Notes: generated by a model not told the origin, from the sequence alone. A stretch of DNA of 20,126 nt from a virus (IMGVR_UViG_3300011114_000861:1-20126); one strand, 5' to 3'; positions 2,725 to 17,420 are shown, counted from the first letter of the stretch. Translations and numbers: made by a program.

Positions 2725-3524
2725 CCTGGATATTTCTCAACAAAAACAACTGTGACGAATACATTGAAATGTTTGCGGCTGGCTGTAATACAGCACCCAC
2801 TTGTTTGGAAACCTGGCGCTACGAAGACAGCACAGATCCACTGATTATACGTGGCATTATGAAACACAAAATTATCAAACGCTGTTGGGGGGATGGCCGG
2901 CAGTTTTACTACATGGATTCGGGCTATTTGGGCAATAGACCCAGCAAAAAAAATCCTGGAGGGTGGAAACATTGGCATAGAATAGTGCCCAACGATCTAC
3001 AGCATGGATCAGTGATTGACAGACCAGCAGATAGATTTGAAAGACTAGACATAAAAATCAACTCACGACAAACAGGAGGCCGTGACATATTGTTGGTCGC
3101 TCCAGATCAAAAGCCTTGTGCATTTTATGATACCACACTCGAGTCGTGGATGGAAACCACAGTAAATCTGCTTCAACAACATACTGATCGCCCCATACGT
3201 GTGCGTGATCGTCCGGCCAGTAGATGGGATCGTAAAACACAGGTGGCACAAGATTGGCTGGAAGATGTGCATGCTGTGGTAACTTTTAACAGTACAGCGG
3301 CTACTGAATCGATATTGTCTGGTGTACCTGTTTTTGTTACAGCGCCTTCCAATGCCGCCCGGCCCATGAGCAATACAAATTTGTGTGCCATTGAACAGCC
3401 GTGGTTCCCTGATTCGGACCAGATATATAAATGGGCATGTCATTTGGCTTATGGGCAATTTCATATTGATGAATTGGCCAATGGTACCGCTGCCGCAATA
3501 CTCAAGGAGACTGCTCATGCGTGA
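2721..3524 (+). CDS. Capsule-polysaccharide-synthesis-like protein, subgroup B copy 1
   Basis: A 267-residue protein. The motif GRQFYYMDSGYLGN is at 59-72, HTDRPIRVRDRPAS at about 154-167, and VVTFNSTAATESILSGVPVF at 186-205, which resembles the capsule-synthesis/Kdo-transferase C-terminal region. The same three blocks, in the same order, occur in the minus-strand protein 6898-7890, so the two are paralogues on opposite strands. It lacks the VRPHP form found in the other two family members. No membrane segment is seen. It is coupled to the upstream glycosyltransferase by ATGA and overlaps the FkbM gene by 8 bases. The likely role is transferring or polymerising a surface sugar; this is inferred from family resemblance, not from an identified active site. 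Confidence 0.62.
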   Translation: MTWIFLNKNNCDEYIEMFAAGCNTAPTCLETWRYEDSTDPLIIRGIMKHKIIKRCWGDGRQFYYMDSGYLGNRPSKKNPGGWKHWHRIVPNDLQHGSVIDRPADRFERLDIKINSRQTGGRDILLVAPDQKPCAFYDTTLESWMETTVNLLQQHTDRPIRVRDRPASRWDRKTQVAQDWLEDVHAVVTFNSTAATESILSGVPVFVTAPSNAARPMSNTNLCAIEQPWFPDSDQIYKWACHLAYGQFHIDELANGTAAAILKETAHA

Positions 3525-4164
3525 ACAATACGGATGGTTCTTCCCAGACATCGAACAACACTTTCCCCAAATGCTGGCCAAGAATATCAGCAAAGGAGGA
3601 CCTGCTGAATATCAACAACCAGTGAGACTACGAAGTTTGCAACATGTTCGCAACAAAAGAACCGCACTGGATATTGGTGCTAATGTAGGACTATGGTCAC
3701 GCGATCTTGTGCAACATTTTGAACATGTGGTAGCATTTGAACCTGTTGAGATGTTTAGAGAGTGCTTGGAAAAGAATGTGCTTGCGTCAAACATCTCTAT
3801 TAAACCTGTGGCCTTAGGCGATTCAGATGGGCTGGTAAACATGATTATAACTGAAGGCAACACTGGTCATACTCATGTTGATCCCGACAGCAAGACTGGC
3901 TCCACAGTTATAGTAAAATTAGACACATTAAATTTGCAAAAAGTTGACTACATCAAAATTGATTGCGAAGGCTTTGAATACCGTGTGCTTCAAGGTGCCA
4001 AAGATACTATTCAACGCTGTCGGCCTGTTGTGGTAATAGAACAAAAGCCTCACGATATGTACTCAAAAGACTATGGACAGTTTGCTGCCATTTGTTTATT
4101 GGAGGATTGGGGCATGGTTCGACTAGACCAAGTCAAAGATGATTGGATCATGGGATGGCGATAG
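3517..4164 (+). CDS. FkbM-family SAM-dependent methyltransferase
   Basis: A 215-residue class I methyltransferase. Motif I is LDIGANVGLWS (51-61), the acidic motif is FEPVEMF (74-80), and the family signature YIKIDCEGFEYRVLQGA follows, the form expected of FkbM-type O-methyltransferases (IKIDxEGxE). These enzymes methylate hydroxyls of sugars, polyketides or other small molecules using S-adenosylmethionine, which fits a sugar-modifying role among glycosyltransferases. The start is ATG 3517, served by AAGGAGA (3504-3510) 6 bases upstream. A longer in-frame extension back to 3385 lies entirely within the preceding gene and is rejected. It overlaps the preceding gene by 8 bases and the next by 10. 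Confidence 0.85.
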   Translation: MREQYGWFFPDIEQHFPQMLAKNISKGGPAEYQQPVRLRSLQHVRNKRTALDIGANVGLWSRDLVQHFEHVVAFEPVEMFRECLEKNVLASNISIKPVALGDSDGLVNMIITEGNTGHTHVDPDSKTGSTVIVKLDTLNLQKVDYIKIDCEGFEYRVLQGAKDTIQRCRPVVVIEQKPHDMYSKDYGQFAAICLLEDWGMVRLDQVKDDWIMGWR

Positions 4165-4781
4165 AAGATCCTGACAAAGGAGCCGCTGATTCGGCACAAT
4201 GGTCACGCAAGTGGACCACTGACAAATACATTGCCAAACGCAGAGCAAACTTTGAAACCGTAGATGCTTACTTGAATCAGCCTGTAGGGCGATTGCTGGA
4301 CATCGGTTGTGGTTTTGCCTGGGACTCAAGATGGTTCAATGAAAAGTACGGCACAGAACTTTGGTTGTTGGATGGTGATGCCAGTAACAACACAGCCAAA
4401 CCTGAAAGTGCTAGTTATGGTAATTGGAACACAGATTCTAGTGAATTGAAGTTTTATCACACTTTTGAATTCTTAGATTCAAAATTGCAAGAACTAGGCA
4501 CAAAAAACTACCATCTTGTTGATGCCAGCATGATCAACATACCCAGTGATGTAAAGTTTGATGTCATCACCAGTTGGCTCAGTTGTGGGCATCACTATCC
4601 TGTGGCCACCTATATAGACCTAATGAAACGACATTCACACCCTGGTACCAGAATTGTGTTGGACATTAGATGCAAAGGCACAGAAACAAATTTCATTGGA
4701 GTAGATGGATTTGAAGTTGTTCGTGTGATTTCAAATGCTGGCGGTAAAAAACGTGCCACTGTGGAGATCAAGTTATTATGA
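4155..4781 (+). CDS. Class I SAM-dependent methyltransferase
   Basis: A 208-residue protein with motif I LLDIGCGFA (47-55) and the acidic second strand ELWLLDGD soon after. FDVITSWLSCGHHY fits the post-motif/motif IV strand of small-molecule methyltransferases. No target-recognition or DNA-methyltransferase catalytic motif (such as NPPY) is visible, so a small molecule or sugar is more likely than DNA. I start it at ATG 4155, which overlaps the FkbM stop; the TTG at 4143 is an alternative with no better ribosome site. The stop overlaps the next ATG (ATGA). The substrate is unknown. Confidence 0.78.
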   Translation: MAIEDPDKGAADSAQWSRKWTTDKYIAKRRANFETVDAYLNQPVGRLLDIGCGFAWDSRWFNEKYGTELWLLDGDASNNTAKPESASYGNWNTDSSELKFYHTFEFLDSKLQELGTKNYHLVDASMINIPSDVKFDVITSWLSCGHHYPVATYIDLMKRHSHPGTRIVLDIRCKGTETNFIGVDGFEVVRVISNAGGKKRATVEIKLL

Positions 4782-5452
4782 CAAGTTCTTATTACCAAGA
4801 ATCAGTTAGACTAGGGCGTGAGTTCCAAGAGAACAACAAGAGTTGGGCTGGATACGATGTTGTAAAGTATCAGAAGTGCATCAAAGACCTTGTGGATTGG
4901 TATGGCGCCCGTACCATACTCGATTATGGATGCGGCAAAGGATTACAATATAAAGAACGTTTACCTTATGGTGGCGGTGCTGGAATTGAATTGCCCCCGG
5001 ATCAATGGCAAACGTTTGACAAATACCTTGGTGTCAATGTCTATTGTTACGATCCTTGTGTGGCAGGCTTTGAACAACTGCCCGCTGACGGCACAAAGTT
5101 TGATGGGGTAATATGTACACAGGTGCTGAACAGCATACCCGACGATGACATGCCGTGGGTGCGGAAACGTTTGGAATCCTACGCTGAAAAGTTTTGTTTC
5201 ATTGGCATAAATTTTCAACGCAAAGCCAAAGGCAAAAAGAGCATGTACGATCCTGCACACTTTCAACAGCCTAGAACACGTGACTTCTTTCGCAGTCACT
5301 ATACTGACTGGAACTCGGGTGATTTGTTCTGGTGGTGGAAAGATCGTCCTTACTACAACACTTGGCTAGAAGACCAATTAAACGCAACGTGGAAGGATGT
5401 GCCTGATACTTTCAGTGGCAAGTATGAATACATAGAGGTAAATCACAGATGA
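4778..5452 (+). CDS. Class I SAM-dependent methyltransferase-like protein
   Basis: A 224-residue protein with motif I ILDYGCGKG (47-55) and an acidic strand end VYCYDPCV (about 82-89). FDGVICTQVLNSIPDDD then gives the strand-4 region with a following loop. The C-terminal 70 residues are rich in aromatic residues (FWWWKDRPYYNTW) and may form the substrate pocket. It belongs to the same general fold as the genes before and after but is too different for a recent duplication. ATGA overlaps on both sides give tight coupling. The substrate is unknown; neighbours argue for a glycan or its precursor. Confidence 0.74.
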   Translation: MTSSYYQESVRLGREFQENNKSWAGYDVVKYQKCIKDLVDWYGARTILDYGCGKGLQYKERLPYGGGAGIELPPDQWQTFDKYLGVNVYCYDPCVAGFEQLPADGTKFDGVICTQVLNSIPDDDMPWVRKRLESYAEKFCFIGINFQRKAKGKKSMYDPAHFQQPRTRDFFRSHYTDWNSGDLFWWWKDRPYYNTWLEDQLNATWKDVPDTFSGKYEYIEVNHR

Positions 5453-6006
5453 TTATAGATCCCAAATACCAAGAGCAATTGATTACTATGCACCAGCAGG
5501 GTAGATTCGTAAATGGTGCCAAAACCGCCAAGGTTGTACGTTCAATAATTGAACGTTATAATCCCACAAGTGTGTTGGATTTTGGATGCGGTGTAGGTGC
5601 GTTGGTCAACTCCTTGCAAGAAACTTATCCCAACATGCGTGTGGAAGGTTATGATCCAGGCAATGTGGAACACAGTCGTATACCCAAACGCTCATTTGAT
5701 GTCATAGTCAGTGCAGATGTATTTGAACACATTGAGCCCGAGCATTTGGCTGCAACTTTACAGTTGATTGGTAGCAAGATGCTAGTGGCTGGATGGTTTA
5801 GAATTGCCTGCTATCCTGCGAAGAAACAGTTACCAGATGGACGCAATGCTCACTTGATTGTGGAGAAGCCAGAATGGTGGCGTGAACAGTTGTTGGCCAA
5901 CATGAACGTTGATATTGTTTCAGAAGATATTTCTATATTTGACAAAAGCCAAAAGTGGCCTGAAGTTCGAGGCTGGAATTACGACGTTGTGGTAGAAGTC
6001 AAGTAA
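5449..6006 (+). CDS. Class I SAM-dependent methyltransferase, last gene of plus-strand cassette
   Basis: A 185-residue methyltransferase with motif I VLDFGCGVG (42-50), acidic motif VEGYDPG, and DVIVSADVFEHIEPEHL, the DVxEHI pattern typical of UbiE/Methyltransf_11-type small-molecule methyltransferases. It is short for the family but looks complete. It starts by ATGA overlap with the preceding gene. Its 3' end overlaps the convergent minus-strand gene tail-to-tail by 28 bases, so there is no room for a terminator and the two transcripts would be antisense there. The substrate is unknown; a sugar or lipid-linked intermediate is plausible. Confidence 0.78.
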   Translation: MIIDPKYQEQLITMHQQGRFVNGAKTAKVVRSIIERYNPTSVLDFGCGVGALVNSLQETYPNMRVEGYDPGNVEHSRIPKRSFDVIVSADVFEHIEPEHLAATLQLIGSKMLVAGWFRIACYPAKKQLPDGRNAHLIVEKPEWWREQLLANMNVDIVSEDISIFDKSQKWPEVRGWNYDVVVEVK

Positions 6007-6905
6007 GGCAGAAACTTTTGCCAGATACGCCCGGCCTGTGCGTCTGCATCACTCCAGTGTGCGGTGGCCAAATCCCATAACCATTGTTCTCTTTCAAACA
6101 CCCGACTTGATTCTATTTGTGAGATAGTGTGATGTGCCACTGACCAAGTGACTGCGCTGGCGTCATCAACAAACACCGGTACACCTTCCAACACCGCAGC
6201 CACACTTGCACTGCTGTTAAAAAACACCGAGGAATGTGCCTGTTGTAAATTTTCCAACAACGTAGATTGTGTGGGATCAATCACCCGAACATTCAGTTTG
6301 TTGTGAAACTGCGCAAACTCTCTCATATCAAACTTGCCAGGGTGTGGACGTACAACAATTGCTCGATTGGTGTATTTTCTGATTTCTTGTATTTTACGTT
6401 CAAGCCACAACAAAGGGCTCAAAGTTTTCATACTAAATCCACCATCACGTTGCATACCAATCAAGATATAACCATCTCTTGATTGATCAGGCTTGAGTTG
6501 GATATGCAATCTGTTTTGAATTTCTTGCCACTTGGTAGAATCACTGTTGCGATTTGCGTACTCCGCACGATCATAAAATGGACCACCTAAACTATAGCGC
6601 AGATAGGTACCTGATTGATCCTGGTACTTGAAACAACTGGCATCAATGCACATGGTATCAAGTCCACGTCTGTGTTGTTCAGATATGATTTCTTTGCGCA
6701 AGGCAATGTTACGACCGCCGGTGTTGGTGGTTGCCCAACCCAGCATCACTGCCAATCTACTGGGTGTGTATACGTAATCATGTTCCAGCCTAACTTGGCC
6801 TCCACAGTTGGCAACACCGGTGGCAAAACTCTCAAGACATTGCTGTTTGCGGCTGTGTTTTTTGACATTGGCCACACTGGAAATGTACACAACACAATCA
6901 AGCAT
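5979..6905 (-). CDS. Capsule-polysaccharide-synthesis-like protein, subgroup A copy 2
   Basis: A 308-residue soluble protein. YILIGMQRDGGFSMKT (about 146-161) is followed by YTNRAIVVRPHPGKF (178-192), then SVFFNSSASVAAVLEGVPVF. This is the order of blocks seen in the capsule-synthesis/Kdo-transferase C-terminal half, with the VRPHP form shared with 1062-1913. The middle segment YLRYSLGGPFYDRAEYANR is an additional conserved-looking block. ATG 6905 overlaps the upstream paralogue by 8 bases, so two members of the family are made from one message. It is the last gene of the 14-gene run that begins at gp32 and collides with the plus-strand cassette. The donor sugar is unknown. Confidence 0.65.
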   Translation of the reverse strand: MLDCVVYISSVANVKKHSRKQQCLESFATGVANCGGQVRLEHDYVYTPSRLAVMLGWATTNTGGRNIALRKEIISEQHRRGLDTMCIDASCFKYQDQSGTYLRYSLGGPFYDRAEYANRNSDSTKWQEIQNRLHIQLKPDQSRDGYILIGMQRDGGFSMKTLSPLLWLERKIQEIRKYTNRAIVVRPHPGKFDMREFAQFHNKLNVRVIDPTQSTLLENLQQAHSSVFFNSSASVAAVLEGVPVFVDDASAVTWSVAHHTISQIESSRVFEREQWLWDLATAHWSDADAQAGRIWQKFLPYLTSTTTS

Positions 6906-7890
6906 TGTTTAATATGCGCCAGGCGGTACCATCACGCATTTCCGCTTCAGTAAATTGACAATATGCTATGTGGCGGGCCCAGGCCTCAACTTCGTCCAAT
7001 GTAGGGACTTTGAGATTTTCAATTTCTGACAAACTCTGACTGCACAGTGGCGCGGCTGCATTTGGTCCCAGTGTGATTGCAGGTTTGCCATGTAGCAAGG
7101 CTTCGCCTGCGGCAATGCTGGAAAATGTAACCAAACAATGTACATCGCGATCCAAGGCCATTTCCATGGTATCGTCGTTGACTCTGGTACTGCGTCCTTG
7201 CTTGGTTCTAATTACCACGGGTCTGTCAGTGTATTGAGCGATTTCTTCTTGTACATTGGCCAACCATTCTTTAAGATTGATATCATAATTGTTCAATAAT
7301 TTTTGGCTAGGCGGAGCCAACAAGATATTACGACCACGTCTAAACTTTTTGAGTTGTACTCCGATTTTGCTTAGTCTATCCCCAGGACGTTCTATTACAG
7401 GCCCAAACCACTGTACATCATTGCGTGTGATTCTATGGTACAGTTTCTTTTTACCATTACCAAAATAACCAGTGTCGATATAAAAGAAATCTCTGCCGGC
7501 TGCACGACATGCTTCCATTTGCTTGCGTTTGGTAATACCTCGCAACACCACAGGAGTTGTGGTAAATTCTTCTTTTGACCATGTGCTGATCTGTCCTCCA
7601 GCACCTTGCACAAAACTTTGTAGGATAGGATCGTACATGTGTCCTTTTCTTTCGTATCTATATTCGCTGTCAGTGCTTACTATGTTATTAACTGGCAATG
7701 CGGCAATTTGCGCATACAATGTTTGCAGTGTAATGCCATAGACTGATCCTGCGGAATCCACGCGATACTTTAATATGTTATCAAATATGTCTCGAATCTC
7801 AGGTACAACTTGATCTAACACATGCGGTTCTGGTGGTGCAGGAGGTGCAGGTGGGATATATGATGATTCATCTTCCTGTTCCCAAATCAT
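6898..7890 (-). CDS. Capsule-polysaccharide-synthesis-like protein with extra N-terminal region, subgroup B copy 2
   Basis: A 330-residue protein. About 115 extra N-terminal residues include a proline-rich linker (YIPPAPPAPPEP, about 12-23) encoded by short GGTGCA-type repeats. The C-terminal part carries GRDFFYIDTGYFGN (132-145), YTDRPVVIRTKQGRS (220-234) and CLVTFSSIAAGEALLHGKP. These blocks match the plus-strand paralogue 2721-3524. I start it at ATG 7890, whose ATG overlaps the TGA of the upstream glycosyltransferase (ATGA). The longer frame to 7911 would use TTG. The proline linker suggests a separate N-terminal domain, perhaps for partner binding. Function is inferred as glycan synthesis; no active site is proven. 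Confidence 0.63.
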   Translation of the reverse strand: MIWEQEDESSYIPPAPPAPPEPHVLDQVVPEIRDIFDNILKYRVDSAGSVYGITLQTLYAQIAALPVNNIVSTDSEYRYERKGHMYDPILQSFVQGAGGQISTWSKEEFTTTPVVLRGITKRKQMEACRAAGRDFFYIDTGYFGNGKKKLYHRITRNDVQWFGPVIERPGDRLSKIGVQLKKFRRGRNILLAPPSQKLLNNYDINLKEWLANVQEEIAQYTDRPVVIRTKQGRSTRVNDDTMEMALDRDVHCLVTFSSIAAGEALLHGKPAITLGPNAAAPLCSQSLSEIENLKVPTLDEVEAWARHIAYCQFTEAEMRDGTAWRILNNA

Positions 7891-8576
7891 TCTATCAACC
7901 TTTGCTGACAATATTCAGTTAGTATGCGTTCTCGGTGCCATTCATCGGCTTGAGGAGTATCAGCAAATTCATGAAAGCAAGGTGTGCCCAAGGTGTAATG
8001 CAATAACTTAGCATCTGGGTTAGGCCCGTATTCATCAGGCAACCAGTTCCACTCTCTTGGCAACTCCCCAATACGATCGTCTTCTATCCAGGTAAAGCGA
8101 TGAAGTTCAGCGCCGGTAGATCGCTGGATAAAGTCAGGTGTAAGTTTCCTATTAGGATAAGTGCCGCAATTCCATAGAATAACACTAGACCAATTTTTTC
8201 TCGGGTAATTTTCATTTTTTGCACCTAAATATTTTTCTGTCATCCGGGTTTGATAATCATGTTTGACCACTTGCACATCTTTGCTGTATTCACGTAGGGC
8301 CCATAACTTTGAAATGTCATCTCTCAAGATCATGTCGCCATCGATAAAGATGGCATGACCTACATAGTTCATTAGATATGGCACTAGGAAACGTGTGTAG
8401 ATAAAGTGATTTGATCCGTCGGTGTGTGTTTCACTATAGTCTTGAAACAAGTTCAAGGCCACTGGCACAATGCTCACAGGGCAAGTTGCATGTCTGATGA
8501 TCGAATTCACACAGGTGTGATAAGCAATGGCTTCTCGAGGATCATACCCAATAAAGATTGGTATAATGTCTTTCAT
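7887..8576 (-). CDS. GT8-like glycosyltransferase
   Basis: A 229-residue protein starting MKDIIPIFIGYDPREAIAYH, the usual N-terminus of GT8/LgtC-like enzymes that bind the nucleotide-sugar. The metal-binding DGD is at 79-81 in AIFIDGDMILRDD. An asparagine-containing acceptor segment (SSVILWNCGTYPNR) and C-terminal LLHYTLGTPCFHEF follow; the latter corresponds to the HxxG-type metal site of GT8. These features make it the clearest glycosyltransferase in the window. It should act in the cytoplasm on a phage- or host-derived glycan. ATG 8576 overlaps the upstream stop (ATGA) and its own stop overlaps the next start (ATGA), so it is coupled to the activating enzyme before it and to the capsule-like gene after it. 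Confidence 0.83.
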   Translation of the reverse strand: MKDIIPIFIGYDPREAIAYHTCVNSIIRHATCPVSIVPVALNLFQDYSETHTDGSNHFIYTRFLVPYLMNYVGHAIFIDGDMILRDDISKLWALREYSKDVQVVKHDYQTRMTEKYLGAKNENYPRKNWSSVILWNCGTYPNRKLTPDFIQRSTGAELHRFTWIEDDRIGELPREWNWLPDEYGPNPDAKLLHYTLGTPCFHEFADTPQADEWHRERILTEYCQQRLIE

Positions 8577-9331
8577 CGACGTTCGATGTCCTCTTCCACA
8601 CAATTTTCGCCGTATTGAATTTCAATCAACTTCAAAGGATTGTCAGTTTCATTGCACAATTGATGCCATTCATTGAGTCGGATCCAGGTCGACTGATGCT
8701 TTGAGGGACTGGCCATCAAGTCATATTCTGTACTATGCGGGTCAACTGTGTACACCGTGGCTTCACCTTCTGCTACAAACCAAAACTCTGCACGTTGGTC
8801 ATGGCGTTGCATACTAAGGCATGTTTTGGGATTGACTGTGAGTTCTTTTAACTTGACGTGATTTCCTACTTCGTGTAGCACACGATAGTAACCCCAAGCA
8901 CGTTCTGTCCGGGGTTTCTTCCAGTCTTCAAGTATCCACGAACTAGAGTTGGCTTTGTCCTCGCCGCCTACACCAAACACAAACTCTACATCATCAAATA
9001 TCATTTCTGGAATATTTTCTGCCGTGCGATCTCCGCCATTGGCAAAAATAATTTCATCATTGGGATATTTTTGTTTAACCTGCCGAATAGCATCGCAGGC
9101 TGTGCCATCTGTATCGTCAAATTCAATCACTTCGCCAACCATATGCAGATTGTCTAGTATAGTCATACGTTCACGCCAAGACATAAACGGACGATCTTTT
9201 TTGCGTGTAAGCCAAGCATCTGAGTTCAATGCCACGACCACATGATCGCCCAGATGGTCGGCGTGATTGAGATAGGAAATATGCCCGGAGTGAAGTGGGT
9301 CGAACCCGCCTGAAACAATTACGATTTTCAT
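8573..9331 (-). CDS. Nucleotidyltransferase-cupin fusion (sugar activation)
   Basis: A 252-residue two-domain protein. Residues 1-135 are a cytidylyltransferase-like domain: SGGFDPLHSGH (7-17) carries the HxGH signature, WRERMTIL (52-59) follows, and NSSSWIL (128-134) matches the C-terminal nucleotide loop. This resembles the adenylyl/cytidylyl domain of HldE/RfaE or TagD. Residues 145-245 resemble the cupin of type II mannose-6-phosphate isomerase/ManC: WGYYRVLHE, then LSMQRHDQRAEFWFVAEGEATV (about 172-193) with the metal-ligand region QRH, then WHQLCN. The protein probably makes an NDP-activated sugar or polyol for the downstream glycosyltransferases, but which one is open. I start at ATG 9331; a frame extends upstream without a good start. 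There is an 8-base gap to the gene before. Confidence 0.8.
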   Translation of the reverse strand: MKIVIVSGGFDPLHSGHISYLNHADHLGDHVVVALNSDAWLTRKKDRPFMSWRERMTILDNLHMVGEVIEFDDTDGTACDAIRQVKQKYPNDEIIFANGGDRTAENIPEMIFDDVEFVFGVGGEDKANSSSWILEDWKKPRTERAWGYYRVLHEVGNHVKLKELTVNPKTCLSMQRHDQRAEFWFVAEGEATVYTVDPHSTEYDLMASPSKHQSTWIRLNEWHQLCNETDNPLKLIEIQYGENCVEEDIERR

Positions 9332-9339
9332 GCAGGTAT

Positions 9340-9792
9340 TTACACCTGGATATCTTCCATGCCCGCAGTTCTTAGCCGCACCACATGTCCTGACATCCAG
9401 GATTTGGAGTCTAGGCCTTTCATGACTCCTAGCCAACGATTACGGAGATAGGCCACTTCGTTAATGATGGTTTCATAATCAATCACTTCATCTTCGCCAT
9501 CCACGTATTTTTCAGCATCTCTAGATGTAAGAGCACGGGCATAATTTTCAAGATATTTTTGAAAGTGCTTTCTGCGTATTTTTCTCAATTGTATGTTGAG
9601 GTAATTGAGTACTGCTTCAATCTCTTGCAGTTGATTGAATCTATGTTCGGTTATTCCAGGCAAGGCTGTGATATTTTTTTCTACTATGCCAGAGATTTTA
9701 CAGTCTCGTTTGGCATCTTCAAGTTCGCGCTCGTAGTGACTGATAAAATCTGGAACTGCGGCAAGACTGGCAACTATTCTACTGTACCACAT
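9340..9792 (-). CDS. uvsY: UvsY-like recombination mediator
   Basis: A 150-residue, charge-rich, helical protein. In T4, UvsY (about 137 residues) helps load UvsX onto single-stranded DNA coated by gp32. Here size, helical character and position in the same operon as uvsX and gp32 agree with that role. The basic stretch LRKIRRKHFQKYLE (about 70-83) would suit DNA contact, and the C-terminal segment contains YLRNRWLGVMKGLDSKSW. I call it from these features rather than from a diagnostic catalytic motif, so an unrelated helical protein is the main alternative. ATG 9792 is preceded by AAAGAG and is only 2 bases from the stop of the previous gene. Its base composition is close to that of uvsX, unlike the A+T-rich genes upstream. 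Confidence 0.6.
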   Translation of the reverse strand: MWYSRIVASLAAVPDFISHYERELEDAKRDCKISGIVEKNITALPGITEHRFNQLQEIEAVLNYLNIQLRKIRRKHFQKYLENYARALTSRDAEKYVDGEDEVIDYETIINEVAYLRNRWLGVMKGLDSKSWMSGHVVRLRTAGMEDIQV

Positions 9793-9794
9793 GA

Positions 9795-10379
9795 TTATGA
9801 CTCTTTAAAATATTGTTGTAACTGTAATAAAATATCGCAGTGAGATGTTTCAAACACATGCTTGGTGAGTGTTTTTTGTTTCAGCAAGTTTGTCAAGATT
9901 GGTTTTTGGCAAGATAAACGCCAGATTCCATTGTTGTACAAAACATTTGTTCGCACATCTTTCCAAGTATTGCCTTGTGCATTATATGCATTTTTTTGTT
10001 GTTCTGTCAAGTGATAGGTGGTGAGACTATATTGCCTCAAAAAATCAGGTAGCAGTTTTACCTGATTTATTTCTATCCAGTTAATGTGTACACACTGATT
10101 GGCAATAATTTGATTGTCAATGACTTTGGTATCTTGTGCTTGTTTGTTGATATAATGCAATTCTACATTTAATGCTGAACTGTTGATTTTTAAATTTTCA
10201 AAATGTAATTCATTGTGTTCAATCAATGTATTTTGCCAATGAATACAATTATCTATTATGAGTTTGACATGAGGATATCTTGTGTCTACAGGTACTCCTG
10301 TCAAACTCATTTTGATTGTGTGAGATTCTGACTCGGCTATTAGATACTGAATTTCTGGTATAGAATCAATGAGTGCCAA
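9795..10379 (-). CDS. Unrecognised protein, possibly beta-sandwich ligand-binding
   Basis: A 194-residue protein with no motif I can name. Residues about 20-110 alternate beta-like strands (HTIKMSLTGVPVDTRYPHVK, LNVELHYINKQAQDTKVIDN), a pattern that resembles carbohydrate-binding beta-sandwich modules. That is a weak structural guess. No signal peptide or cysteine pattern is visible. The start is TTG 10379: a strong GAGGAG site (10387-10392) sits 7 bases upstream, and the first in-frame ATG would remove 23 residues. It overlaps the preceding radical SAM gene by 14 bases. Like that gene it is A+T-rich, suggesting they arrived together and may act together. Confidence 0.6.
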   Translation of the reverse strand: MALIDSIPEIQYLIAESESHTIKMSLTGVPVDTRYPHVKLIIDNCIHWQNTLIEHNELHFENLKINSSALNVELHYINKQAQDTKVIDNQIIANQCVHINWIEINQVKLLPDFLRQYSLTTYHLTEQQKNAYNAQGNTWKDVRTNVLYNNGIWRLSCQKPILTNLLKQKTLTKHVFETSHCDILLQLQQYFKES

Positions 10380-11877
10380 CTGCTGACTCCTCGAGTGCCG
10401 ATAACATATTGTTGTAAATTGAATTTAGAACAATTAGGTCTTCTCTTGCAAAAGCCACCGGAATGCCCAGAGCGTCACAAAATTCCTGAGCAATAATTCT
10501 TCTTCTTACTCTTTCTCGGAGAGTGAGAGTAGAATTTTTGAGCCATATCCAGTCATAAGGATTGTCAGATGTGTACTCAAAGTCGTTCAAACGATAATGC
10601 TGGGCATCATCAAACATCAAAGTATACCCTAATCTAATATTGCTTATAGTTCCATCAAAGAAATATCTTTGCAATTTTTTCAATAAATCTAATGTTGACA
10701 AGAAATCTTGCCAGGTTTCATTATAGAATCCTATTAAAAAAAGCAAATTACAATCAATATTATATTGATGAAATTTTGTTATTTCATACAACAAATCTTC
10801 TACAGTAGTATTTTTTTTCATTTCTGCCAGCACCCTATTACTACCGCTTTCGGCACCAATAGTTAGTCCGTGAGCACCCGACAATTTAAGCAATTGAAAA
10901 TCATCATTGGTCATTTGATTTTGAGTCCGGCATATATAATTACCATGCCATTTAATTTGATTTTGCGGATTAGTTTGATTGTACTCTGCTAAAATTCTAA
11001 CAAAATTTTTAAATTCTTTCAAAGATCCATTGGTCAAACTGTCTGTAAATTGAAATTTATATATTCCATATTTTTTGCTCAAATAGATTACTTCGTTGGC
11101 AATTTTGATTCCAGTTTTGAAATAATACTGTGAATAGTTACTGTGTTCTGAGCAAAAGACACATTGACGAATGCAACCTTTGGAACCTTGAACCAATAAC
11201 TTTTTTTCATTATTAGTAAAAAGATATTGATCTAATTTGTAATCATCAAAACTAGGAACGTAGTCATAATCAAATTTGGTTTCGTTGGAAATCAAAGAAC
11301 TCAAATAGTTATCAGAACTTCTTAGAACATTTACTAATTCTTGTTCTCCATCGTTAACAATAGCAAAGTCTGTTAATTTCTTAGATAACATAAAATTAGC
11401 AAAACTAGTTTTCTTTTCAAAATAATTTAAACTAGATATTGAATACAGTCCTTTTGGCGGCTGTGTACAACCCATGCCTCCAATAATAATTTTACATTCA
11501 AATTTTGAATTTTTAATTTTCTGGCAAAGAAAGTAACAAAATCTCTGTTGCCATAGACTAAAAACACTCAAAGCCAAAAACCGTGGATTAAATTCTTCCA
11601 ATAGGTTTAAGAATTCATTGATTGCCTGATTCAGTTGAAATTTATGTTGCTCACTTACCTTGTTATAATCCACATGATTGGGCAAACTGTTTCCCCACTC
11701 AAGATAAGTCTCATAATGTCCCTTGAAAATTTTTTGTAAGCAATGCAGTGAAAAATCCAGTGTTCGACAAGTAAATCCTTGCTTTTCTACTGCTGATTTT
11801 AATAAGGCTGGTGCTATAGGAGGTTCATTCAAATAATTTGGTGGTAGTGTGGCCAATAATAAATCCAATTGATTCAT
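10366..11877 (-). CDS. Radical SAM protein with B12-binding-like N-terminal domain
   Basis: A 503-residue enzyme. The N-terminal part (about 1-140) has the opening of B12-binding radical SAM proteins (LPPNYLNEPPIAPALLKSAV, then a Rossmann-like IIIGGMG at 130-136), but no DxHxxG cobalamin-histidine motif, so cobalamin may be bound base-off or not at all. The radical SAM cluster is C235, C239 and C242 in GSKGCIRQCVFCSEHS. Downstream, LTIGAESGSNRVL and LLFLIGFYNET match the later strands of the barrel. It would use S-adenosylmethionine and a [4Fe-4S] cluster for a radical reaction on an unknown substrate. It is strikingly A+T-rich: 10741-10800 has 12 G+C in 60. ATG 11877 overlaps the previous stop by one base (TAATG). 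Confidence 0.82.
   Translation of the reverse strand: MNQLDLLLATLPPNYLNEPPIAPALLKSAVEKQGFTCRTLDFSLHCLQKIFKGHYETYLEWGNSLPNHVDYNKVSEQHKFQLNQAINEFLNLLEEFNPRFLALSVFSLWQQRFCYFLCQKIKNSKFECKIIIGGMGCTQPPKGLYSISSLNYFEKKTSFANFMLSKKLTDFAIVNDGEQELVNVLRSSDNYLSSLISNETKFDYDYVPSFDDYKLDQYLFTNNEKKLLVQGSKGCIRQCVFCSEHSNYSQYYFKTGIKIANEVIYLSKKYGIYKFQFTDSLTNGSLKEFKNFVRILAEYNQTNPQNQIKWHGNYICRTQNQMTNDDFQLLKLSGAHGLTIGAESGSNRVLAEMKKNTTVEDLLYEITKFHQYNIDCNLLFLIGFYNETWQDFLSTLDLLKKLQRYFFDGTISNIRLGYTLMFDDAQHYRLNDFEYTSDNPYDWIWLKNSTLTLRERVRRRIIAQEFCDALGIPVAFAREDLIVLNSIYNNMLSALEESAVGTH
10387..10392 (-). promoter_or_regulatory. Ribosome binding site deciding a TTG start
   Basis: The minus strand reads GAGGAG, complementary to the 3' end of 16S rRNA, with 7 bases before TTG 10379. 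No other start in that frame is as well placed. It lies inside the end of the upstream radical SAM gene, so translation of the two genes is likely coupled. Confidence 0.55.
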
Positions 11878-12134
11878 TAATTTTCCCAGTCTTCTTCCTC
11901 TTCGTACTCATCTTCGTCGTACTCATCTTCCTCATAGTCCTTGTCATTGTCAAGGTACGTGGTCAAAGCACGTTTGATGTCACCGTCGCCTTTGAAGGCG
12001 TTTCTAATATCTTCCACGTCCGAATCATTGTCCATCAAGATCTGTATCACAGTTTCTGCGGCTTCCGCACGGTCCACTGTGTTTACAAAACGCTTGAGTT
12101 CAGACCATATTTCACTTGCTATTGTTTCACTCAT
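11877..12134 (-). CDS. Small acidic protein adjacent to uvsX
   Basis: An 85-residue protein. The first 60 residues look helical (SEIWSELKRFVNTVDRAEA, then DIRNAFKGDGDIKRALTTYL). The last 22 are almost entirely Asp, Glu and Tyr, encoded partly by a 15-base tandem repeat. Highly acidic C-termini in phage replication proteins often bind partners or mimic DNA; T4 gp32 is an example. Its position directly after uvsX, with an 8-base overlap, suggests a role around recombination. That is inference, as I recognise no family domain. It ends where the radical SAM gene starts (TAATG). Its composition is nearer to uvsX than to the A+T-rich gene downstream. Confidence 0.75.
   Translation of the reverse strand: MSETIASEIWSELKRFVNTVDRAEAAETVIQILMDNDSDVEDIRNAFKGDGDIKRALTTYLDNDKDYEEDEYDEDEYEEEEDWEN
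11902..11931. repeat. 15-base tandem repeat in acidic tail (2 copies)
   Basis: Two adjacent 15-base units (TCGTACTCATCTTCG, then the same ending in C) match at 14 of 15 positions. On the coding strand they give repeated Asp/Glu/Tyr units in the tail of the small acidic protein. The unit is a multiple of three, so copy number could change the length of the acidic tail without a frameshift. Confidence 0.7.
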
Positions 12135-13185
12135 CTGGTGTTTCCTCCTGGGTACTTACCTCTTCTTTGCGTCGACCAAACTCTGACATCACAATGTCAA
12201 GCACACCACCTTCGTTTGACTCCCAGGCTTTGCGGAAGTGTTTGAGAATTTCACCGTCTAGTGTAGTGTAAGCCAAACGATTGCCGTCCTTTTTCAAGAA
12301 GCCTTTCTTTTCAGCCAAGTCCACCAAGCCTGAGTAAGGATTCATGCCTGTTTCGTAAGGAATCTTGACCTGCACACCTTCAAAGGGTTTGGCATAACGT
12401 GTTTTCATTACCTTGCAGGCTGAGCGAATACCCATGACGTCTGACACTTTGTTGCCGTCCTCGTCCTCTTTGAGTTTGAGTTTCTTCATAGCAACAACAA
12501 TACTACTGGCGTAAATAAAACCTTGACCGCCGGAGATCTTGTCATCAGGATCAAACATATCCTGGCTGGCATAGGTGTGATTGGTACATACCAAGCCCAC
12601 GTTGTAACTGCCAAACATGTTGACACAGTTGCGAACTAATGCAGTGAGTGCCTTGGGCTTCCTACCCAGGTCGCCTTTCATTTCACCTGCATCAAACTGA
12701 TTAACATCTGTGGGGGTAAGCAACATGCCCAATGAATCAATCACAAACAACACTTTGGGGCGTTCTCCATCTGCTAGGCCCTTGTAGTCACTCATAAATG
12801 TAGAAATAGTTTTGGCCACATCATCAATCATGGCCATGCTTAGTTTTAATAACTTTGATTCTGATGTATCAACTCCTAACGCTTTGAGCCAATCTTCGTC
12901 AAGAGCGTTTTCAGTATCAATCAACACCACAAAGATGCCTTGTTCTTGTGCGTTCTTGATAATGTTGCCTGAACAGATATAACTTTTACCTGCTCCTGAT
13001 TCACCGGCAAACACAGTTACCTTTCCCAAGGGAATACCTCGGTTAAAGTCTCCTGAAATTAGGTAGTTCAAGGCATAGTTGCCTGTGGAGATCCAGTCTG
13101 TGGGATCATTGAATCCGATTGACAAGCCGTCAATGCTTTTGGTGATTTCCTTGCGGAACTTGCTTACGTCAAATGGTTTTGCCAT
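12127..13185 (-). CDS. uvsX: UvsX, RecA-like recombinase
   Basis: A 352-residue RecA-family ATPase. Walker A is GESGAGKS (61-68). Walker B is the VLFVID region (145-150), followed by SLGMLLTP. The loop after LVCTNHTYASQDMFDPDD and the SGGQGFIYASS segment fit the DNA-binding L2 region and core end of UvsX/RecA. T4 UvsX (about 390 residues) forms filaments on single-stranded DNA and drives strand exchange, with UvsY and gp32 as partners; all three are present here. The C-terminus is acidic (EVSTQEETPDE). ATG 13185 has an AAGGA site (13194-13198) 8 bases upstream. It overlaps the radical SAM gene before it by 17 bases and the small acidic gene after it by 8. Confidence 0.93.
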   Translation of the reverse strand: MAKPFDVSKFRKEITKSIDGLSIGFNDPTDWISTGNYALNYLISGDFNRGIPLGKVTVFAGESGAGKSYICSGNIIKNAQEQGIFVVLIDTENALDEDWLKALGVDTSESKLLKLSMAMIDDVAKTISTFMSDYKGLADGERPKVLFVIDSLGMLLTPTDVNQFDAGEMKGDLGRKPKALTALVRNCVNMFGSYNVGLVCTNHTYASQDMFDPDDKISGGQGFIYASSIVVAMKKLKLKEDEDGNKVSDVMGIRSACKVMKTRYAKPFEGVQVKIPYETGMNPYSGLVDLAEKKGFLKKDGNRLAYTTLDGEILKHFRKAWESNEGGVLDIVMSEFGRRKEEVSTQEETPDE

Positions 13186-14320
13186 AGTTTATGTCCTTAT
13201 ATAAATCTTTAAAAATTGTCTTGCTATCTACGCCCCTACGTCGATCCAATTCTGATAACCGATCAATGGACTGTTGAATATTTTTTCCAAATGGAGTATC
13301 AATATAGTGTAGCAAATTTTGATAACTGTCTTCAAGAAGATAACCTGGTTTTTGGCTGATCCTATCTTGTAACTTGTTCTTTACAGAGTTTAGCACACTT
13401 TCTGGTAAGTGTCTAATATTTAGGTATTCAGGATTCAACAATGCTCCAATCACAAAACTGTTGTTGTGAAATCCTAAAGATTTCAAAAAATCAACACAGT
13501 CAAATATAGAGTTGTAGTTTAATAAAAAATGCAACATGTTGAAAGAAATTTTGTGACCCAACTGCTTGATAATGGTTAGGTTATCCAAAAAATCTGTCCA
13601 CTTACCGCCATGTCGTACATACTCAAATTCTTGTGCTTGCGTTTCAACGCTGACGGTCCAATGCACATTTGAAAATTTACATATGGCCTCAAACACCCTG
13701 GTATCGACTTTGCTTAGGTTGGTGTTGATTCTAATATTGGTGTCAGGGCGCAATTTTTCCAAGAGTGTTAGATTTTCTTTCATCAACAACGGCTCACCGC
13801 CGGCCAGGTACACATGCTTGAGTTGAGACGCATGTTCGTAAATGTAATTTTTAAAATCCGTTAACTGATGTTGATTGGGTATGTCATGCTGGATTTTGAG
13901 TTCTTCGCTCCATCGACTACTAAATTCAGGACCGCAATATACGCATGCAAAATTGCAAAGGTTGGTCCAACGCACATCAACTGTTTGTAAATCAAAGCGA
14001 CCAATTTGATAAGTGTCAATTGGTGTGCTTTTCAATTCTCGTATGTAAAACACGCGGTCACTGATATGATCAAATCCTTTTTTGCCACGGTCTAGGTCGT
14101 AACAGGTATAGCAAGTTTTTACTGGCATTTGATCAACAATTTCTTGCTGTCTTTCACGATTGTTATCAACTAGAATTTGACCAATAGGTTGATCTTTGAT
14201 ATTGCCAAGCGGTCCAGTACTGCGAATACAATTTTTAACTTTACCGTCAAAATTATACATCATGCCTGTCCAGGGCATGGGACAGAAATATGGATTGGTC
14301 AACATATCACGTGGAGTCAT
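13169..14320 (-). CDS. Twitch-type radical SAM protein 1
   Basis: A 383-residue radical SAM enzyme. The cluster-binding cysteines are C122, C126 and C129 (NLCNFACVYCG), and GGEP (174-177) is the usual SAM-contact motif of strand 2. Additional cysteines at 13, 31, 70 and 73, ahead of the barrel, could hold an auxiliary cluster in the twitch/SPASM style, though at the N-terminal side. Later blocks (IRINTN and KWTDFLDNL) are shared with 14859-15824, so the two are distant paralogues. The substrate is unknown: peptide, sugar or nucleotide intermediates are all possible. ATGA overlap couples it to the SDR gene before it. It is A+T-rich (13261-13320: 17 G+C of 60) compared with uvsX. Confidence 0.83.
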   Translation of the reverse strand: MTPRDMLTNPYFCPMPWTGMMYNFDGKVKNCIRSTGPLGNIKDQPIGQILVDNNRERQQEIVDQMPVKTCYTCYDLDRGKKGFDHISDRVFYIRELKSTPIDTYQIGRFDLQTVDVRWTNLCNFACVYCGPEFSSRWSEELKIQHDIPNQHQLTDFKNYIYEHASQLKHVYLAGGEPLLMKENLTLLEKLRPDTNIRINTNLSKVDTRVFEAICKFSNVHWTVSVETQAQEFEYVRHGGKWTDFLDNLTIIKQLGHKISFNMLHFLLNYNSIFDCVDFLKSLGFHNNSFVIGALLNPEYLNIRHLPESVLNSVKNKLQDRISQKPGYLLEDSYQNLLHYIDTPFGKNIQQSIDRLSELDRRRGVDSKTIFKDLYKDINYGKTI

Positions 14321-14862
14321 TTATATGCTGGTCCTAGTGATATGTCCGGAATAATCAAATTGTTTGCGTTGGCCATTTCCAGTATTTTAATCAATACTGA
14401 CGCCCAGATGCTGACATCGGCCGCTGGTGGCACGGTTTTGTCTGCACTGGTTGCCACGTTGCCTGGTCGCACAAGGGAAATTTTGACTCCCAGCCGCTGA
14501 TGTCTTATTTGCTTTACTGCTTCCTCAAGTGCAAGTTTTTGCACACGATAGGCTGTCATGTCAAGTCCAGGCAACACACTCGTGGGATCCCGAGTCATCA
14601 TGGTGCTTATGACCAAAATGTGTTTATTGGTACCTGACCACCGTTTGGCCATTTCAAACAGTAGTTCAGTTTGAGCATAACCAACTTGAGCATTATTCAC
14701 AAATACGTCACAGGGTTCTATGACATCAGCAATCTTAGGCAAAACACGTATGTTGTGCCCGGTTCTTCTACTCAATCTTAGAACCTCGTGTCCACGACTT
14801 TCATACTCATTGCCTAGTGCCTGTCCTATTCCAGCAGTGCCACCTGTGATTGCTATTTTCAT
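14317..14862 (-). CDS. Short-chain dehydrogenase/reductase (SDR)
   Basis: A 181-residue Rossmann oxidoreductase. TGGTAGIG (6-13) is the cofactor-binding glycine motif, NNA (56-58) the structural motif, and Y105 with K109 form the catalytic YxxxK. S86 in VISTMMT is a plausible catalytic serine. RLSRR after strand 2 suggests NADPH over NADH. It is short beside typical SDRs (about 250) but carries the full core. PG in RPGNVATS follows in the expected position. ATG 14862 overlaps the preceding stop (ATGA), and its end overlaps the next start (ATGA), so it sits between two radical SAM genes. Together they suggest a radical step followed or preceded by a carbonyl/alcohol redox step on the same molecule. 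Confidence 0.86.
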   Translation of the reverse strand: MKIAITGGTAGIGQALGNEYESRGHEVLRLSRRTGHNIRVLPKIADVIEPCDVFVNNAQVGYAQTELLFEMAKRWSGTNKHILVISTMMTRDPTSVLPGLDMTAYRVQKLALEEAVKQIRHQRLGVKISLVRPGNVATSADKTVPPAADVSIWASVLIKILEMANANNLIIPDISLGPAYK

Positions 14863-15824
14863 CGATAATAATCCCAAAGTTTAATTCCTCGTAACTGATC
14901 TTGTTGATAGGTCCACAACTGTAGTTCTACTGTGTTGTCTTTATTGTTACCCACTATAGATTTCAATCGATCTGGTACATCTGCCGTTCTTGTAAAATGA
15001 TTGTTGTATTTTACATTCAACACATCAGGTTGTTCTAACAATGCCCACGAGTGATTGATACCTTGATCTCTAGTGTATGCAAAAATATTTTTTAAGTCTC
15101 CAATATTCAATGCACTCACAGTGGTCCATGTATTTAATTCTGTTATGTTCATTGATTTATAGGTCAAGAGATTGCGTTCAAAATTTTGCCATTTTATAGG
15201 CCAGCGTATATAGTCATGTATCAAACCAATGCCATCCAAACTCACAGTTACAGTCACATGTATACCACGATCTAGCAGATGCTCTATTTCTGTTATTACT
15301 GTGGAACAATTGGTATTGATTCTGACACTGGTCACCGATGGCGGAATATTTTTCAGTATATTGCGATAATTCTTGCTGGCACTGGGTTCGCCGCCGTTGA
15401 TGTCCAAATGCACCACACGATCCAACGGCAATTGCCAAAAAGCATTAGAGTTATCTACAATAGGATAATCTCGCGATATCAAACTACCTATTTTTGTGCT
15501 TAAATTTTGATTGCAGGATTGGCAAGCACTGTTACAAATGTTGTCTAACACTCCGCCAACTATGAGATAGTCGGTCCTAGTTTGTCCTTTGTCAAATTCA
15601 ATGGCATTTAGTCTTATACTTGTATTGTTGACTTGTTCGGTTTGTTGACATCTCACACACTCTTTGGGCCATGTGTTGGGCATGCTTTTGATACTGGCCA
15701 ACCATTCACTTGATTCCATTTGCTCCAGACTATCAAACTGTGGAGCATTGATCATGTGTCCACAACGACTCAGGGTGCCATTGGGATTGAATCTCACAAA
15801 GTGATCAAGTCTTGGGCAATACAT
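14859..15824 (-). CDS. Twitch-type radical SAM protein 2
   Basis: A 321-residue radical SAM enzyme with C97, C101 and C104 (ICNSACQSCN) and GGEP (144-147). Cysteines at 3, 21, 56 and 59 precede the barrel, the same spacing pattern as in 13169-14320, and suggest an auxiliary cluster. RINTNCS and IKWQNFERNLL correspond to blocks in the paralogue. It is 62 residues shorter, mostly at the C-terminus. ATG 15824 overlaps the end of the sulfotransferase-like gene by 20 bases. No ribosome site is strong. It is moderately A+T-rich. The substrate is unknown; the link to the SDR is by position only. Confidence 0.82.
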   Translation of the reverse strand: MYCPRLDHFVRFNPNGTLSRCGHMINAPQFDSLEQMESSEWLASIKSMPNTWPKECVRCQQTEQVNNTSIRLNAIEFDKGQTRTDYLIVGGVLDNICNSACQSCNQNLSTKIGSLISRDYPIVDNSNAFWQLPLDRVVHLDINGGEPSASKNYRNILKNIPPSVTSVRINTNCSTVITEIEHLLDRGIHVTVTVSLDGIGLIHDYIRWPIKWQNFERNLLTYKSMNITELNTWTTVSALNIGDLKNIFAYTRDQGINHSWALLEQPDVLNVKYNNHFTRTADVPDRLKSIVGNNKDNTVELQLWTYQQDQLRGIKLWDYYR

Positions 15825-16431
15825 TTTGTATAATATTCATATGATTGCATTTGTAATACTCTAACAACTGTGACCATGAGAATTCTTGACCTGCCAAATC
15901 TAAAAGTATTTGATCCAAAAACAGCCATAACTCTAGGTGGTTATTGTCTTTCAACAAACTATTAACAAATTCACTTGTTGGGTCCAAAACCATGGCTCGA
16001 TCATGGTAATCTGCAATTTTAGCAAAGTCTTTGAAATTTCTCAATCGTATTTTTGCATCACTATGCATGTACCGAGAGAGATTGGCCAACCAATGAAATT
16101 GTGGTAGGTAATGAGTGTTGAGAAATTTATAGCGTTTGGCAAACCAAAAGGCTGTAGAAAAGTCTAATTCAGGGTGATCGCGTTGAAGATGTTGCAGGTA
16201 TGTGTTAACTCCACTGACGTATCTGGCTCGAGGGTTGCGTATGTAAACATCCACATAGTCAAGTGCTCGAATCTGGTCATTGGCAAACACATTAAGATTG
16301 TCTCTTGCTTGCTGACGCCTCAAACTGCTGTTTCCGTTTTTCTGAATTAGATAAACCCATTGACTGTGAAGTGGTATTTCTACCACTTCACAAAGATCTG
16401 GAAACAACTCTATGTCCAGAGCAGTTCGCAT
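15805..16431 (-). CDS. Sulfotransferase-like protein
   Basis: A 208-residue protein. VYLIQKNGNSSLRR (26-39) resembles the 5'-phosphosulfate-binding loop of PAPS-dependent sulfotransferases. VYIRNPRARYVSGVNTYLQ (62-80) resembles the 3'-phosphate-binding block (RxPxxRxxSG). The two blocks have the right order and spacing for the Sulfotransfer_2-type carbohydrate enzymes. It would transfer sulfate from PAPS, supplied by the host, to a hydroxyl or amine of a glycan. The match is to short motifs, and a catalytic base is not obvious, so a related P-loop enzyme remains possible. ATG 16431 overlaps the stop of gp32 (TAATG). Confidence 0.7.
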   Translation of the reverse strand: MRTALDIELFPDLCEVVEIPLHSQWVYLIQKNGNSSLRRQQARDNLNVFANDQIRALDYVDVYIRNPRARYVSGVNTYLQHLQRDHPELDFSTAFWFAKRYKFLNTHYLPQFHWLANLSRYMHSDAKIRLRNFKDFAKIADYHDRAMVLDPTSEFVNSLLKDNNHLELWLFLDQILLDLAGQEFSWSQLLEYYKCNHMNIIQNVLPKT

Positions 16432-17420
16432 TACTTGGCTTGTCTAGCGCGAATCATGGCCAAAATGTCTTCGGCCTTTTGACCACCAGCAGGTTTTGTG
16501 ACAGGAGCAGAAGCCACTGGTGTGTCATCTTCGTCATCAAAACTGGATGGTGCTGGTTTGGCTGTTGCCTTGACTGCAGGAGCAGGTGTGTCATCGTCGG
16601 CCGCAGGTGCCGCCGCAGAACTGCCACCGGGTGCTTGCACACCAGCAGGACGGAAGTATTGACCCCAACGCTCAGTGTCGTATGGTTGTCCGTCTACACT
16701 TGCTTCAAACATTTCTTTGATAACCTTGAGTTCGACATCGGTTGGTTTCTTGGGCAAGAATGTGCTCAAGTCAAACAAACCATGTGCATCAACTGCGGCT
16801 TGTTCTGCTTCGGTCAATGCTGACTCTTTACGTGCCCACTTTGATCCATTGTAGTCAGCAAAGCCGCCTTTGGCACCTTTTGAGATGCGGAAGTCCAAGC
16901 CACGCACATAGTCTGTTGGTAATTCTTCCAGTTCAGGATCCATCAACGCACCCTTGATAGTGGTAAAGATTTGAGGTCCAATGATGAATCTGCGAATGGG
17001 ATTCTCTGGTGTTTTGTCATCTGCGAGAGGATTCTCTCTCACAAAACCTTGGAAGATGTATGAACGTTTCTTCCAGTACTTACGACCCATGTCTTCAAGA
17101 CTCTTGTCCTTGAACCAGGTGCGTACTTCTGCTAGGATGGGACAGGCCTCACCCCACATTTCTACGCAAGGTACTTGTACCATGACTTGTTTGGATTCCA
17201 TCTCTCCTTTGATGCCATTGAATGGCAAACGAATCATGGCTCGTTCTTGCCAAAAGAAAGTGTTTTTTGAGTTACCATCTGGGAGGAAGCGTACTGTAGC
17301 CGATTGGCCTTCTTCCATGTTCCAATGTGGGTAAATTGAATTGTCCCCACCGGTGGATTGCCCACCTTGTTTTGATTCTGCTGCCTGTAGTCTTGCTCGA
17401 ATTTCTGCTAGTGATGCCAT
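16431..17420 (-). CDS. 32: gp32-like single-stranded-DNA-binding protein
   Basis: A 329-residue protein with the gp32 plan: a basic N-terminal segment (MASLAEIRARLQAAESK) for cooperative self-association, a core with aromatic and basic residues (TVRFLPDGN, TFFWQERAMIRLPF, KKRSYIFQGF), and an Ala/Pro linker leading to an acidic tail (PSSFDDEDDTP). T4 gp32 is 301 residues and uses the tail to contact replication and recombination proteins. VPCVEMWGEACPI may be a remnant of the zinc region. The last residues (EDILAMIRARQAK) echo the N-terminal motif. The gene opens the 14-gene run and has AAAGGAG (17429-17435) 8 bases before ATG 17420. A promoter-rich leader lies upstream. Confidence 0.9.
   Translation of the reverse strand: MASLAEIRARLQAAESKQGGQSTGGDNSIYPHWNMEEGQSATVRFLPDGNSKNTFFWQERAMIRLPFNGIKGEMESKQVMVQVPCVEMWGEACPILAEVRTWFKDKSLEDMGRKYWKKRSYIFQGFVRENPLADDKTPENPIRRFIIGPQIFTTIKGALMDPELEELPTDYVRGLDFRISKGAKGGFADYNGSKWARKESALTEAEQAAVDAHGLFDLSTFLPKKPTDVELKVIKEMFEASVDGQPYDTERWGQYFRPAGVQAPGGSSAAAPAADDDTPAPAVKATAKPAPSSFDDEDDTPVASAPVTKPAGGQKAEDILAMIRARQAK

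Follow-up and report, generated by a model that had tools for sequence, protein, structure and literature searches.

A stem-loop behind gp32 and two cargo slots in the recombination core of uncultivated jumbo-phage relatives

The virus record IMGVR_UViG_3300011114_000861 (20,126 bp, analysed entire as the window and itself a 20-kb fragment of a phage genome) carries a run of fourteen open reading frames (ORFs) on the minus strand, from 17420 down to 5979, in which the recombination genes gp32, uvsX and uvsY are interleaved with enzyme genes of other kinds (Table 1). We consider it probable that this run is built on a gp32-uvsX-(85 aa)-uvsY core with two exchangeable cargo slots, and that an RNA stem-loop insulating gp32 is retained by the cargo that is tolerated there. 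Cargo would be inserted and exchanged repeatedly at slot 1, between gp32 and uvsX, and at slot 2, between the gene for the 85-aa protein and uvsY, and, with no intergenic space of its own, would travel on the gp32 transcript. The stem of cargo-free gp32-uvsX junctions would be retained, either ahead of the cargo or within the codons of the first cargo gene. There it may insulate gp32 expression by shielding the 3′ end of the gp32 mRNA and/or by attenuating read-through, with limited expression of the cargo and uvsX continuing past the stem, and only stem-preserving cargo would be tolerated. In phage T4, gp32 has the most stable mRNA of all genes, with an RNase E cut close to its stop (PMC3014915). 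We also lean, if only slightly, towards a dual-coding rule, by which an incoming first gene must encode the gp32-finishing stem-loop in its own codons, a property that would have evolved independently in unrelated genes.

The stem-loop at the end of gp32

In the window, the start of the sulfotransferase-like gene shares 1 base with the gp32 stop, and the stem region that follows has a minimum free energy (MFE) of -21.7 kcal/mol. A strong stem-loop after the gp32 stop is also found in all 20 of the cargo-free junctions among related IMG/VR loci. The cultured jumbo phages Vibrio 2.275.O, GAP32, Phosso and Atu_ph07, in which gp32 and uvsX are adjacent with no cargo, likewise have a hairpin between the two genes (-16 to -18). 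Over the whole set, a local hairpin of -15 kcal/mol or stronger is present at 147 of 168 distinct gp32 ends, compared to at most 12% after nine other genes, one of which, the 85-aa gene, is represented by 4 sequences only.

At cassette loci the sulfotransferase usually starts 1 base into the gp32 stop, which leaves no intergenic space and places the stem inside the ORF. A closer look at these embedded stems shows a median z of -4.1 against synonymous shuffles (70 relatives, 40 shuffles per sequence), and in 57 of the 70 no shuffle is as strong. For most loci, these shuffles reject the idea that the hairpin is a mere by-product of the protein sequence. Compensatory changes are seen at 6 of 12 stem pairs, a level found in none of 500 shuffles, and this holds separately for the 208-aa type and for a diverged type of the sulfotransferase, which encode differing residues at the stem yet both covary. 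The location of the stem also follows the location of the gene. In loci where over 24 nt separate the gp32 stop from the start of the sulfotransferase, the stem stands between the two genes and the ORF itself mostly shows background values; the median ORF hairpin is -10.7 at 13 dereplicated far loci versus -21.7 at 95 near ones (P 9e-8).

Since the embedded stem occupies nucleotides ∼39-68 of the sulfotransferase ORF, at a constant distance from the overlapping stop and start, it could instead be a translational device of the cassette that slows or promotes re-initiation at that start and is unrelated to gp32. This appears unlikely, as a similar stem is present in cargo-free phages and ahead of cargo that does not abut gp32, the ORF in that case usually having none, and first cargo genes of other families carry it as well (z < -2 in 12 of 19 that abut gp32). 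A role at the level of DNA, in which the inverted repeat is a target for recombination or insertion and not an RNA element, would explain why the repeat marks the side of the slot at which cargo starts. We give this very little credence, because across cargo types the pairing is conserved, G-U pairs included, while the sequence is not, and because the uvsX side of filled slots has no stem of a comparable kind. Of other signals, the T4 late promoter TATAAATA has no occurrence in the window, sigma-70 and terminator scans give the same counts as shuffles, and an Rfam search gives no match.

Cargo slots and cargo turnover

Slot 1 is cargo-free in 20 of the 66 IMG/VR loci that were found with uvsX as seed and include both flanks, with gp32 and uvsX spaced ∼55-75 bases apart, and the remaining loci hold one to several genes. 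Besides the four-gene cassette of the window, slot-1 cargo includes hydroxylases, AMP-binding enzymes, hexapeptide transferases, a desaturase, a symporter and lipases. One further slot-1 gene, which shares its slot with a radical S-adenosylmethionine (SAM) gene, is amidinotransferase-like by eye and has a weak GMC oxidoreductase match in Pfam (L019:974-2152; L numbers denote related loci). No homing endonuclease (GIY-YIG, HNH) is found in the Pfam matches of the 14 window genes or in those of 79 further slot-1 proteins. Slot 2 is mostly empty or holds one twitch radical SAM gene. In the window it holds a B12-binding radical SAM protein and a 194-aa protein, a pair that is nearly private: L090 alone is close (70% and 55%, respectively), a further relative of the radical SAM protein in L105 is distant, and direct scans for both proteins gave no additional relatives.

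The cassette is scattered over the UvsX tree (86 rows, 17 of them cassette-bearing) much like shuffled labels, with 15 changes against a shuffled-label mean of 15.8, and identical UvsX proteins are found with differing slot states. Pairwise distances of gp32 and uvsX correlate well (rho 0.81), while those of rSAM2, the last cassette gene, and uvsX do not (0.09), even though the two genes adjoin. DNA breakpoints are abrupt, as in L157 and L214, which share 89% identity across gp32, the sulfotransferase and rSAM1 and ∼74% from the oxidoreductase gene on; between the same two loci the rSAM2 proteins are 52% identical and the UvsX proteins 99%. By these sequence comparisons cargo exchange outpaces divergence of the core, and the mosaic breakpoints suggest that cargo most likely moved by homologous recombination within the conserved core genes on either side.

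Several points weigh against a retained, insulating stem and frequent exchange. The far sulfotransferase of L144 carries both an intergenic and an embedded hairpin, and most of the 13 far sulfotransferases belong to related lineages. A strong stem is missing from a minority of the cargo genes that abut gp32, those of L031, L068 and L116 among them. There is no consistent U-tract after the stem (mean T count in the following 8 nt of 3.1 in cargo-free and 4.2 in embedded cases), so the stem does not qualify as an intrinsic (Rho-independent) terminator and classical termination is not claimed for it. The function of the hairpin is one that we infer from comparison of sequences. Lastly, the related loci were picked by similarity, many being short contig fragments, and the UvsX tree, built by a quick method, has 28 weak branches.

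The four-gene cassette and the glycan block

Neighbouring genes in the run overlap by 1-20 bases, including 17 bases between the rSAM2 stop and the uvsX start, except for gaps of 2 bases between the 194-aa gene and uvsY and of 8 bases between uvsY and the nucleotidyltransferase gene, the latter counted with the methionine at 9331 as the nucleotidyltransferase start. A first-pass annotation of the window had described such a 14-gene run with no gap above 8 bases, and this layout holds. Profile and family searches likewise bear out its naming of gp32, uvsX and a uvsY-like gene, of three radical SAM proteins, a short-chain dehydrogenase/reductase (SDR), a nucleotidyltransferase-cupin fusion and a glycosyltransferase.

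Table 1. Genes of the run and the stem-loop, in order along the minus strand.
Feature	Coordinates	Strand	Evidence
gp32-type single-stranded DNA-binding protein (core)	16431..17420	-	PHROG 1192 E 1.1e-69
RNA stem-loop 3′ of the gp32 stop, inside the first sulfotransferase codons; 13-bp stem, GAAA loop	16364..16393	-	MFE, shuffles, covariation
Cassette gene 1: sulfotransferase-like	15805..16431	-	K31-N-G and R65..R70 motifs conserved; BFVD fold match E 5e-13
Cassette gene 2: rSAM1, radical SAM with N-terminal twitch-type cysteines	14859..15824	-	NF033640 E 2e-34
Cassette gene 3: short SDR oxidoreductase (TGxxxGIG, YxxxK)	14317..14862	-	PF01370 E 2e-7, adh_short
Cassette gene 4: rSAM2, twitch-domain radical SAM	13169..14320	-	NF033640; C122/C126/C129 invariant
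UvsX recombinase (core)	12127..13185	-	PHROG 97 E 4.7e-69; closest to Phosso and GAP32
85-aa acidic protein, uvsX-uvsY interval (core-associated)	11877..12134	-	relatives at >110 loci and in Phosso, Atu_ph07
Slot-2 cargo: B12-binding radical SAM	10366..11877	-	PF04055 and weak B12-binding match; NCBIfam B12-radical SAM families below cut-off
Slot-2 cargo: hyp194, 194-aa protein	9795..10379	-	weak PHROG 11171/2274; relative in L090
UvsY recombination mediator (core)	9340..9792	-	PHROG 231 E 9.6e-13
Nucleotidyltransferase-cupin (phosphomannose-isomerase type) fusion, glycan block	8573..9331	-	PF01467 E 1e-12, PF01050 E 3e-21
GT8 glycosyltransferase, glycan block	7887..8576	-	PF01501 E 2e-7; WbbM E 0.0014
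KpsC/WbbB-like Kdo-transferase fold, glycan block	6898..7911	-	22 PDB fold matches E<0.001
Second capsule-synthesis-like protein, glycan block	5979..6905	-	adjoins 6898-7911 in relatives (conserved)

The four cassette genes of slot 1 are locked to their locus: with 80 loci kept for each gene as seed, all 80 adjoin gp32 or uvsX. At loci that retain both flanks, all four occur together in 66/67, 58/60, 64/64 and 54/55 cases per seed, or 242/246 locus counts, with some loci entering the tally through several seeds. The loci that depart from this suggest two sub-modules, sulfotransferase-rSAM1 and SDR-rSAM2, because the two pairs stand in reverse order in L154, the first pair is alone in L079, and the second has another partner pair in L116, L276 and L278. 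An additional gene of ∼154-218 aa, falling in several sequence clusters and matching no Pfam family, lies between rSAM1 and the SDR gene in many relatives, L082, L094 and L124 among them; the window does not have it.

Assignment of the first gene product as a sulfotransferase is likely, based on its predicted structure (predicted local distance difference test score 90), which matches a viral "Sulfotransferase family" model in BFVD with a template modelling (TM) score of 0.81. The sulfotransferase-like label given in the first pass has this viral fold match behind it, while Pfam, NCBIfam and PDB-sequence searches return no match and PDB fold matches to 3-O-sulfotransferases are non-significant. 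The rSAM1 protein scores 119 bits against NF033640 (N_Twi_rSAM), below the curated cut-off of 170 bits, while rSAM2 scores 227 bits and exceeds it. Invariant cysteines in rSAM1 comprise the CxxxCxxC motif (C97/C101/C104) along with C3, C21, C56 and C59, and both SDR motifs are kept in 25 relatives. Among 50,697 phage records, the sulfotransferase and rSAM1 have no relatives and rSAM2 has relatives of only 21-23% identity. Searching genomes for a bacterial origin of rSAM2 gave just two distant matches (20-24%), and therefore no bacterial pathway context.

The cassette probably acts on a small molecule or a glycan, by what may be radical-SAM dehydrogenation or rearrangement, SDR reduction and a putative sulfation. 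Nine related records of 90-213 kb give some genomic context, with up to 15 NF033640 matches each and none in one of the nine, an A-type Fe-S carrier (PF01521) in six, and weak matches to adenosine 5′-phosphosulfate (APS) kinase in three. Four records (L193, L252, L106 and L214; 145-213 kb) have 10-15 matches apiece, and the one with zero (L056) has both slots empty. The cassette might also hypermodify phage DNA, considering its place in a replication and recombination operon and the T4 precedent, where the glucosyltransferase and hydroxymethylase genes beta-gt and 42 adjoin uvsX/segA. We regard such a role as very unlikely, given that the thymidylate-synthase/hydroxymethylase family PF00303 is absent from the nine related records, which are incomplete, and that many relatives are entirely without the cassette.

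Downstream of uvsY lies a second group of enzymes. The nucleotidyltransferase-cupin fusion conserves the GGFDPxHSGH and cupin motifs, and its PDB matches are cytidylyltransferases. For the protein encoded at 6898-7911, all 22 PDB matches at E<0.001 are 3-deoxy-D-manno-oct-2-ulosonic acid (Kdo) transferases (KpsC, WbbB, KrkA), albeit with TM-scores of only 0.3-0.45, and its model shares the KpsC/WbbB Kdo-transferase fold, with the corresponding activity predicted. The first pass had named two capsule-like proteins here; this fold speaks for one of them, while the other, at 5979-6905, has no match in family searches. Facing the run, divergent glycosyltransferase-, FkbM- and other methyltransferase-like genes occupy 1900-6006 on the plus strand. 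In L042, L047 and L054 the nucleotidyltransferase-cupin/GT8 block is inverted.

The first-pass annotation had read the whole run as one glycan pathway, expressed with replication and remodelling the host surface or the virion. While the nucleotidyltransferase-phosphomannose isomerase cupin fusion, the WbbM-like GT8 enzyme and the KpsC-like fold are surface-glycan enzymes, and a sulfotransferase and an SDR are able to act on sugars, we find a single pathway unlikely. The SDR is of the short classical type with no sugar-specific family, no substrate is assigned to the radical SAM family, and the two gene groups assort independently. The nucleotidyltransferase-cupin gene is present at 18 of 26 loci with the cassette and 14 of 25 without (Fisher P 0.39), and the KpsC-like gene at 5 of 26 and 11 of 25, respectively, leaning away from the cassette (P 0.07). 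Co-occurrence, which the first pass had set as its test, is thus seen within the cassette but not between cassette and glycan block, so "one pathway" is unsupported. What stands of that interpretation is the recombination core, set in a single run of translationally overlapping genes, together with a real surface-glycan block, made up of the nucleotidyltransferase-cupin, GT8 and KpsC-like genes and separate from the cassette; the single pathway and a strict "T4-like" label do not.

Phage affiliation and comparison with known systems

Judged by sequence, the core belongs to the jumbo phages of the T4 superfamily and is not T4's own, because the window UvsX is 70% identical to that of Phosso and 67% to that of GAP32 but 27% to that of T4, and because the gp32-uvsX order is shared. 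With T4-type UvsX not its closest relative, the window falls outside the Straboviridae (T4 phages sensu stricto); the closest UvsX and the same gp32-uvsX(-uvsY) order place it with the jumbo group. In T4, uvsX adjoins 40 and segA, and neither gp32 nor uvsY, whereas uvsY comes next after uvsX in GAP32 and Vibrio 2.275.O and probably sits beyond a small gene in Phosso. The 85-aa acidic protein keeps a constant position between uvsX and uvsY at >110 related loci. Profile searches place relatives of it in Phosso (E 2e-11) and also in Atu_ph07 (E 7e-8), and it is a candidate for an unrecognised recombination accessory.

If the stem is retained as proposed, the core offers a concrete rule for adding metabolic cargo to essential operons, which is to keep the 3′ RNA element of the upstream gene, overlapping it with protein code if needed. 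This suggests how foreign genes may enter an essential operon and leave it functional, by way of a hairpin in the cargo codons. The group identified here consists of abundant, uncultivated, radical-SAM-rich jumbo-phage relatives, and two genes of their main cassette have no relatives in cultured phages. No description of the gp32-uvsX slot or the hairpin was found in the open-licence literature.

The Rak2-like and rhizobial jumbo phages (GAP32, CBB, Phosso, Atu_ph07) have the closest cultured UvsX, and GAP32, Phosso and Atu_ph07 share both the gp32-uvsX order and the intergenic hairpin, but their gp32-uvsX interval is without cargo where the window has its cassette. Among environmental genomes, the marine T4-like TARA_ERS488813_N000010 is described, in the part of the source consulted, as carrying roughly a dozen radical SAM genes together with an A-type Fe-S carrier (PMC5332604), resembling the NF033640- and PF01521-bearing records above; that part gives genome content and does not describe a gp32-uvsX slot, the four-gene cassette or the hairpin. 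The hypervariable islands of pelagimyophages also swap radical SAM cassettes and GT8/lipopolysaccharide genes among related T4-type phages, but lie in the structural/tail-fibre region (PMC7029224), whereas the cargo here is inside the gp32-uvsX-uvsY core. The nearest precedent for a stem inside a cargo ORF comes from mobE and segF, mobile genes that encode homing endonucleases in T-even phages and carry terminators within the 5′ part of the coding sequence (PMC2988022). In contrast to these, the cargo here is a biosynthetic cassette with no endonuclease, and the stem, which has no clear U-tract, recurs in differing cargo families behind one core gene.

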